A DNA stretch of 64,000 bases from Ignisphaera sp. GTDB lineage: Archaea; Thermoproteota; Thermoprotei_A; Sulfolobales; Ignisphaeraceae. The stretch lies in the NCBI GenBank assembly GCA_038735125.1, contig JAVYNU010000001.1, positions 186,001-250,000 of the forward strand, written 5' to 3'. The translations under genes were made by a program, and so were the position numbers. Position 1 is the stretch's first letter, and every line of letters begins with the position of its first letter. A model generated the notes under the pieces. The model was not told where the DNA came from. It did not search any database and worked only from the letters and a program-made list of their open reading frames with translations. Below are positions 36,639 to 38,362 of the stretch, in pieces.

Positions 36639-37166
36639 TGGCGCCGCGGCCGGGATTTGAACCCGGGTCACGGGCTTTCTATATGTCCCCTCCCCGCCTT
36701 GTTTTCTAAATCTAAATTTTTTCTTACAGCGCTTATAAATGTTTCTATCTTGCTTCTAATATCCTTGTCATTTATCCTTATCTGACAAATTCCGAATATA
36801 TTTCTACGTCTTATCTTTTTCACCTTTCTCCTATATGGATATATCTTGATATGATCATAATCAACACCTATTTTTCTATGCCAGAATTCCACTATATCAG
36901 GAACGGCGATTTGAGCTACTTCGAGGTTGAACGTTATATAAATAAATCTTATTACGCGGTATCCCTAACTCGTTTATAAGAAAATCGTAAACTATCTTGA
37001 TTATCTGTGGATCAGTATTGGTGAACGTAAACCTACCTTGATTTTTATACTTTTGTTTACCAAAACTCCCTTCAGCTACTATAAGTCCAGCAACAAATAA
37101 TGAAGAGGGCGGCGGGGAGGGGGCATATGACAGGCCCGCATAATAGCCGGGCTATACTACCGCGGC
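36639..37166 (-). tRNA. tRNA-Asp (GUC) split by a 451-nt BHB intron
   Basis: Exon 1 is 37128-37166 (39 nt, acceptor GCCGCGG). Exon 2 is 36639-36676, with T-arm CCGGG-TTCAAAT-CCCGG, acceptor CCGCGGC, discriminator G and an encoded CCA (36639-36641). Joined, they give the anticodon stem CGGGC/GCCCG and loop CTGTCAA, anticodon GUC. The intron is 36677-37127, between nucleotides 37 and 38. The junction forms a textbook bulge-helix-bulge: stem CGGGC/GCCCG, four-bp helix CTGT/ATAG, bulges CAT and AAA, each cleaved after the second base. The intron ends pair over about 16 bp (TATG...CCCCTCCCCGCC with its complement). A TATA-like element at about 37186-37192 precedes the gene. Confidence 0.93.
36668..37127 (-). 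pseudogene. LAGLIDADG homing endonuclease frame inside the tRNA-Asp intron, frameshifted
   Basis: Read 5' to 3' on minus, the first frame (37127 to stop TGA 36897-36899) encodes LFVAGLIVAEGSF (37062-37100), a clear LAGLIDADG helix, then GRFTFTNTDPQIIKIVYDF and LGIPRNKIYLY. At about 36935 the homology moves to the +1 frame, ITFNLEVAQIAV, EFWHRKIGVDYD, and RRNIFGICQIRINDKDIRSK, ending at TGA 36668-36670 in exon 2. Joined, it makes a single-motif endonuclease of about 150 residues. No ATG/GTG/TTG precedes the LAGLIDADG part in the intron. Most likely a recently damaged endonuclease gene; a sequencing error or an unusual expression route are alternatives. Confidence 0.8.
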
Positions 37167-38249: not shown

Positions 38250-38362
38250 TGGGCCCGCCGGGATTCGAACCCGGGACCACGGGGATCTCCGCCTATAGGT
38301 CCCGAGTCGGGCACGGATAGTTCCGTGTACCCCGCATCCTAGCCAAGCTAGACTACGGGCCC
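38250..38362 (-). tRNA. tRNA-Pro (CGG) with two introns
   Basis: Exons: 38329-38362 (acceptor GGGCCCG to U32), 38301-38305 (U33 to G37: TCGGG), 38250-38285 (U38 to discriminator A; T-arm CCGGG-TTCGAAT-CCCGG; acceptor CGGGCCC). CCA is not encoded. Intron 1 (38306-38328, 23 nt, site 32/33) sits in CGGG/CCCG with bulges GTA and ACT above a CACGG/CCGTG hairpin. Intron 2 (38286-38300, 15 nt, site 37/38) sits in a BHB whose central helix UUCG/CGGA includes U32 and U33, so it is complete only after intron 1 is removed. Loop after splicing is UUCGGGU, anticodon CGG. Promoter TTTTATT at about 38386-38392. Confidence 0.9.

Follow-up and report, generated by a model that had tools for sequence, protein, structure and literature searches.

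The 64,000-nt stretch of an Ignisphaera sp. genome analyzed here (contig JAVYNU010000001.1, positions 186,001 to 250,000; hereafter the window) carries on its minus strand a tRNA-Asp(GUC) gene that is interrupted at tRNA position 37/38 by a 451-nt intron (36677..37127) with bulge-helix-bulge (BHB) ends, within which lie the apparent remains of a LAGLIDADG homing endonuclease gene (HEG). The first exon (tRNA positions 1-37; 37128..37166, 39 nt) and the second (positions 38-76 with an encoded CCA; 36639..36676, 38 nt) were delimited with ARAGORN on the spliced sequence, a 77-mer with a complete tRNA fold that is identified as tRNA-Asp(gtc), and the two halves lie exactly where the original prediction for this DNA had placed them, 451 nt apart at 37/38. 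Standard gene finders miss such tRNAs: at default settings neither ARAGORN nor Rfam recovered the locus (c37166-36639), and a tRNA-Ser(aga) label given by ARAGORN to it and to locus L046 was rejected as an artefact of intron placement. A group I intron was also considered and rejected, Rfam giving no match in the window and the ends being of the BHB type instead.

The BHB is built as the original prediction had described it, with an anticodon stem CGGGC/GCCCG, a 4-bp helix CTGT/ATAG, and two 3-nt bulges (CA^T and AA^A) around that helix at the exon/intron junctions. Directly beyond it lies a GC clamp of 12-15 bp, in which the 5′ strand TATGCCCCCTCCCCGCC (37111..37127, minus strand), containing the ancestral HEG ATG, pairs with the 3′ strand GGCGGGGAGGGG (36687..36698, minus strand). 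At 37°C the unconstrained fold favours a slightly shifted pairing, and the BHB-constrained fold lies 2.7 kcal/mol higher than this minimum; at 85°C the two have equal energies. Among the tRNA-Asp introns at this site, the helix has six sequence versions of its 3′ side, and pairing with CTGT is possible in 37 of 37.

The genome (1.81 Mb in 12 contigs, 99.9% complete) holds 46 other tRNA loci, none of them a second tRNA-Asp, and a search with the spliced sequence returned a 100% match of both halves only at the window locus; a tRNA locus labelled Ser(aga) by ARAGORN is, by inspection, an intron-bearing tRNA-Glu(CUC). The window locus is the genome's sole tRNA-Asp(GUC) gene. Because the copy is the only one and its exons are intact, the halves must presumably be joined for the cell to survive, in agreement with the earlier proposal that the tRNA remains functional.

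The intron-encoded LAGLIDADG gene and its homologues

The HEG of the window consists of two pieces in different frames on the minus strand, both of which match one LAGLIDADG protein. The N-terminal piece (36948..37103) contains the motif LFVAGLIVAEGSF, with its terminal acidic residue present (FVAGLIVAEGSF), and matches Pfam PF14528 (LAGLIDADG_3) at 22.9 bits (E = 1e-4; cut-off 22.5 bits), while the C-terminal piece (36668..36946) continues in a second frame to a TGA stop (36670-36668) inside tRNA exon 2. The ancestral ATG (37126-37124) occupies intron nucleotides 2-4 and is conserved in the homologue of genome G114 described below, relative to which two frameshifts can be located. At 37095..37097 a T-run is 1 base shorter (TATTTG vs TATTTTG), and between 36947 and 36946 frame comparison reveals 2 missing bases. 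The reading frame in this genome is therefore shifted twice (-1 and -2 nt), and no start codon is found in the motif-bearing frame. Unless the assembly is wrong, the gene reads as a pseudogene and, because it is frameshifted twice, the window copy is probably no longer self-mobile. The original prediction that the insert encodes a LAGLIDADG protein accordingly stands as to the protein family, through the Pfam match on which it could have foundered, and falls short as to an intact open reading frame (ORF).

Intact homologues occupy the same tRNA-Asp 37/38 site in two metagenome-assembled genomes (MAGs): a 155-aa ORF in a 567-nt intron of an Acidilobaceae MAG (G031, JALVZQ010000008) and a 151-aa ORF in a 448-nt intron of a Desulfurococcales MAG (G114, JAMOPC010000494). 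Pairwise protein identity is 62% between the window and G114, 47% between the window and G031, and 51% between G114 and G031. Silent differences are saturated (0.77-0.87 per site) and replacement differences are not (0.23-0.34), which points to purifying selection on the HEG, and these homologues would represent the active forms. All three ORFs carry a single LAGLIDADG motif and stop at the exon 2 TGA (...GCCCGTGA). The homologues score 21.2 bits against PF14528, just under the cut-off. The best match among proteins of solved structure is I-DmoI (E = 0.016), and the HEG profile weakly matches an ORF inside a large subunit (LSU) rRNA gene (E = 7e-6).

HEG carriers at tRNA-Asp number 3 among 214 genomes of the order and belong to three families. 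Both HEG-bearing MAGs were recovered with a two-sequence alignment search. A peptide-pattern scan of genome contigs found no HEG homologues; wider scans of 229 genomes of the class and 398 of the phylum gave weak matches only, some of them in small subunit (SSU) or LSU rRNA genes; viral contigs gave a single 27% match, and phages and plasmids gave none.

Empty sites and LAGLIDADG introns in other tRNA genes

The uninterrupted sequence GGGCCTGTCRNGCCC is present in 133 of the 214 genomes of the order and in none of the three HEG carriers. Each carrier has a close relative with an exact empty tRNA-Asp site: the sister species G005 for the window (flanks 84-91% identical), G112 for G114 (96-99%), and G094 for G031 (93-98%). 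The intron-free relatives called for by the original prediction thus exist in three cases, and they provide the precise intron-minus alleles expected of a homing intron. In G005 and the window the neighbours of tRNA-Asp are alike, comprising aldolase-like and DHH-family genes. The congener G006 has exactly the exons of the window, and the closer relative G005 differs from them at 2 bases, a pattern that would fit exon co-conversion, although weakly.

Introns at tRNA-Asp 37/38 in the order range from 14 to 567 nt, and ordinary short ones (14-55 nt) are common. The introns of G113 (36 nt) and G109 (49 nt), near G114, have a G114-like stem (P = 0.001 each, shuffled controls), and the G031 stem resembles those of Aeropyrum pernix (P = 0.002) and of the Acidilobaceae genomes G096 and G098 (P = 0.0005). 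Such likeness supports homology and falls short of proof, because the stems are C-rich and short. Acidilobaceae tRNA-Asp introns of 121-187 nt gave no credible match in a search for HEG remnants.

tRNA-Asp is not the only host. A survey covered 40 regions of the order (two of these retrieved twice) whose LAGLIDADG ORFs are for the most part compact, chosen from the top matches of a single Pfam model; host isotypes beyond Asp and Phe were assigned by inspection. It placed many of the ORFs in rRNA genes and several in tRNA genes. Near position 30/31 of tRNA-Phe(GAA), LAGLIDADG introns of 633-670 nt occur in five genomes, with intact HEGs in G106 (L161) and G139 (L169) and broken ones in G108 (L181), G107 (L188), and G109 (L201); the tRNA-Phe gene of the window genome has a 48-nt intron near 30/31. 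A tRNA-Trp gene, identified by inspection, hosts an intron of 716-749 nt in two genomes, G139 (L173) and G138 (L184), both with intact HEGs, and in each gene this intron lies upstream of a second, C/D-box-like intron. The T-loop of a tRNA-iMet-like gene is interrupted at about 59/60 by introns of 732-735 nt in G013 (L166) and G016 (L170), both with broken HEGs; the tRNA-iMet of Thermofilum pendens is permuted at 59/60 (PMC3218864). Since the tRNA-Phe, -Trp, and -iMet enzymes contain two motifs and match Pfam strongly (E to 2e-15), they appear to be captures separate from the tRNA-Asp HEG. At least four tRNA species host LAGLIDADG introns in the order, and the true number of such introns is likely higher. 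As a separate observation, a multi-intron initiator-tRNA-like gene in G114 (L175, G114:C214) is directly followed by a LAGLIDADG ORF, which lies between two tRNA-3′-end-like sequences, GGGGCCCCGCCACCA and GGGGGCCTCGCCACCA.

A probable homing intron in an essential tRNA gene

The locus is very probably an essential single-copy tRNA-Asp(GUC) gene that was colonized by a homing intron. The enzyme, presumably a homodimer, would cut uninterrupted tRNA-Asp alleles in their anticodon arm, which is nearly palindromic (CGGGCCTGTCAAGCCCG), and double-strand-break repair would copy the intron into the cut allele. At the RNA level, removal of the intron would fall to the tRNA splicing endonuclease together with the RtcB ligase and would thereby leave the host unharmed. 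With the site occupied, the enzyme would come under relaxed selection; in the window genome two frameshifts appear to have broken the HEG already, whereas the ends needed for splicing are preserved. Shorter introns with similar end stems plausibly mark a later stage, as possibly do the split tRNA-Asp genes of A. pernix and relatives. Intron presence and absence together with the sporadic distribution form the pattern characteristic of a homing intron with a tRNA gene as host, and the mobility raised by the original prediction gains indirect support from the three sister pairs, with the reservation that the window copy itself has probably lost it.

Several points weigh against this reading. Presence and absence may reflect gain or loss, and give neither the direction nor a homing mechanism. 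The LAGLIDADG similarity is modest (E about 1e-4). AlphaFold models of the two intact HEGs reach a pLDDT (predicted local distance difference test score) of 77-81 from alignments of 2-4 sequences only; they show an alpha-beta pattern of the type expected for LAGLIDADG proteins, and among the matches listed by Foldseek against the PDB for these two shallow-alignment models a LAGLIDADG structure is absent. The frameshifts in the window could also be assembly errors.

That last point leads to an alternative in which the endonuclease is still functional, the frameshifts being assembly errors or the protein being made through frameshifting or from a circular intron. Archaeal rRNA introns are known to circularise, the C-terminal frame of the window intron runs by sequence across a circular junction into the LAGLIDADG frame, and both shifts fall in A/T-rich low-complexity runs. 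We nevertheless regard this alternative as unlikely, given two separate shifts, one of them of 2 nt, the missing start codon in the motif-bearing frame, and the frequency of broken HEGs in related tRNA introns (the five tRNA-Phe and tRNA-iMet-like copies of G107, G108, G109, G013, and G016). It is very improbable that the intron is instead an old, vertically inherited and immobile one that acquired coding sequence by chance: the abundance of short introns does mark tRNA-Asp 37/38 as a site with an intron history, but exact empty sites in close relatives of 3/3 carriers, the sporadic distribution, the LAGLIDADG identity of the encoded protein, and the separate HEG lineages in other tRNA introns all argue against it. 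A chance ORF or artefact, with unrelated halves and a merely LAGLIDADG-like insert, would account for the weak Pfam score and the broken frame in the window, yet is refuted by the homologues of two other families, which are intact, occupy the identical tRNA site and have a conserved protein with saturated silent sites, and we give it virtually no credence.

Read as a genuine though decayed homing intron of an essential tRNA gene, the window element would extend a known mechanism to a new class of host. It resembles the archaeal rRNA BHB introns of the I-DmoI type, found in 16S and 23S genes of Desulfurococcales and Thermoproteales, in its BHB ends, its LAGLIDADG gene, its exact placement within a strongly conserved RNA gene, and its sporadic presence, and differs from them in its tRNA host and in a single-motif HEG of about 150 aa that stops in the downstream tRNA exon. 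With ordinary archaeal 37/38 tRNA introns it shares the site, the BHB junction, and presumably removal by the tRNA splicing endonuclease; those introns have published lengths of 11-129 nt (PMC3218864, PMC4090602) or 11-175 nt (PMC2738675), the former without an encoded protein, in contrast to 448-567 nt and a HEG here. Group I introns with HEGs in bacterial and organellar tRNA genes likewise sit in the anticodon loop and follow the homing principle, whereas the tRNA-Asp intron has no ribozyme recognized by Rfam and its BHB ends would be processed by proteins. Endonucleases have been tied to rRNA introns (PMC2738675, PMC4496867), and a search of openly accessible papers turned up none that describes homing endonucleases in the tRNA introns of archaea. 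The original prediction, which called a tRNA host unusual, understates how many tRNA species of the order are affected.

A promoter-like motif and the split tRNA-Asp genes

The same tRNA and the same site are split elsewhere. A. pernix and Thermosphaera aggregans have tRNA-Asp genes split at 37/38 (PMC3218864), whose loci correspond by coordinates to the tRNA-Asp genes of G041 and G126, respectively (PMC3218864, Table 1). Chan et al. (2011) demonstrated by northern blot that the A. pernix halves are separate transcripts joined at 37/38, and postulated an unknown site-specific mobile element targeting this position of tRNA-Asp (PMC3218864). Because the joining stem of A. pernix resembles the stem of the Acidilobaceae homing intron (G031), the tRNA-Asp homing intron is a candidate for that element. 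Split tRNA-Asp genes share with it the tRNA, the 37/38 site, and a GC joining stem beside the BHB (PMC3218864); they differ in having no HEG and, in A. pernix, in halves that were shown to be separate transcripts.

A promoter matrix was derived from 47 tRNA upstream regions of the window genome. Its best match in the window intron, a tentative motif resembling a B recognition element (BRE) and TATA box (AGAAACATTTATAAG; 36732..36746, minus strand), begins 70 nt upstream of the 3′ splice site; in 3/3 tRNA-Asp HEG introns the best match falls 64-70 nt upstream of that site. In A. pernix it lies at 62 nt, and in G085, G095, and G098 within the shared range of 62-67 nt; G096 has a match at 76 nt and G084 none. 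The motif overlaps HEG codons for IENF/IETF, and its score given the protein exceeds what synonymous codons would be expected to give (P = 0.013-0.037). In the same interval the mean score is 5.6 for 11 tRNA HEG introns vs 1.2 for nine SSU rRNA HEG introns (rank test, P = 0.017 by copy and 0.053 by family). Taken together, these values are no more than suggestive of a promoter in the tRNA-Asp HEG introns.

On this basis the tRNA-Asp of HEG carriers may already be functionally split: a promoter within the 3′-terminal part of the HEG would drive transcription of the 3′ half, and the two halves would be trans-joined across the GC clamp, as in A. pernix. This would add to the homing-intron explanation, and we consider it a possibility of somewhat less than even standing. 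The A. pernix-like placement in all three HEG introns, the excess over the synonymous-codon expectation, the higher scores of tRNA than of SSU rRNA HEG introns, and the northern-blot precedent (PMC3218864) speak for it; shuffling within each intron, on the other hand, gives P of only 0.05-0.23, the control comparison by tRNA family stays at P = 0.053, the motif is weak in 3/4 tRNA-Phe copies tested, and it overlaps conserved codons. A more general scheme, to be held equally tentatively, is that archaeal tRNA genes are invaded time and again by LAGLIDADG homing introns, which give rise to short introns as well as to split tRNA genes. In this scheme the codons at the 3′ end of the HEG would also act as a promoter for the 3′ half, so that a HEG-bearing tRNA would already be a two-transcript gene; once the HEG is lost, what remains would be either a short intron or a split tRNA of the A. 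pernix type.

Whether archaeal tRNA introns and split tRNAs are ancestral or of late origin is an old dispute. The empty, intact, and decayed forms at tRNA-Asp 37/38 offer a concrete candidate element, making the late-origin model testable, and connect the homing intron to the origin of split tRNAs by a link that can itself be tested; some tRNA introns look like invading selfish elements, at a site where tRNA genes are split elsewhere.

Further loci of the order resemble the split genes. Five Acidilobaceae tRNA-Asp loci (L093-L097, in G084, G085, G095, G096, and G098) have inserts of 126-187 nt like the split A. pernix gene, a promoter-like motif precedes the 3′ half in 4/5 of them, and they are probably further split tRNA-Asp genes. 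Two others (L100 and L101, in G117 and G118) are tRNA-Asp 5′ halves with no 3′ half found within 1.3 kb downstream on either strand, possibly belonging to widely split genes. In the window genome, L043 (G000:C1:47396-47470) is a partial copy resembling tRNA-Arg(CCU) that lacks CCA and has a damaged acceptor stem; it is probably an integration-site remnant. Near tRNA-Asp in the window, a second intron-bearing tRNA (38250-38362, minus strand; 46.5 bits) is called Leu(CAG) by ARAGORN, and its sequence fits a tRNA-Pro(CGG) with two introns.
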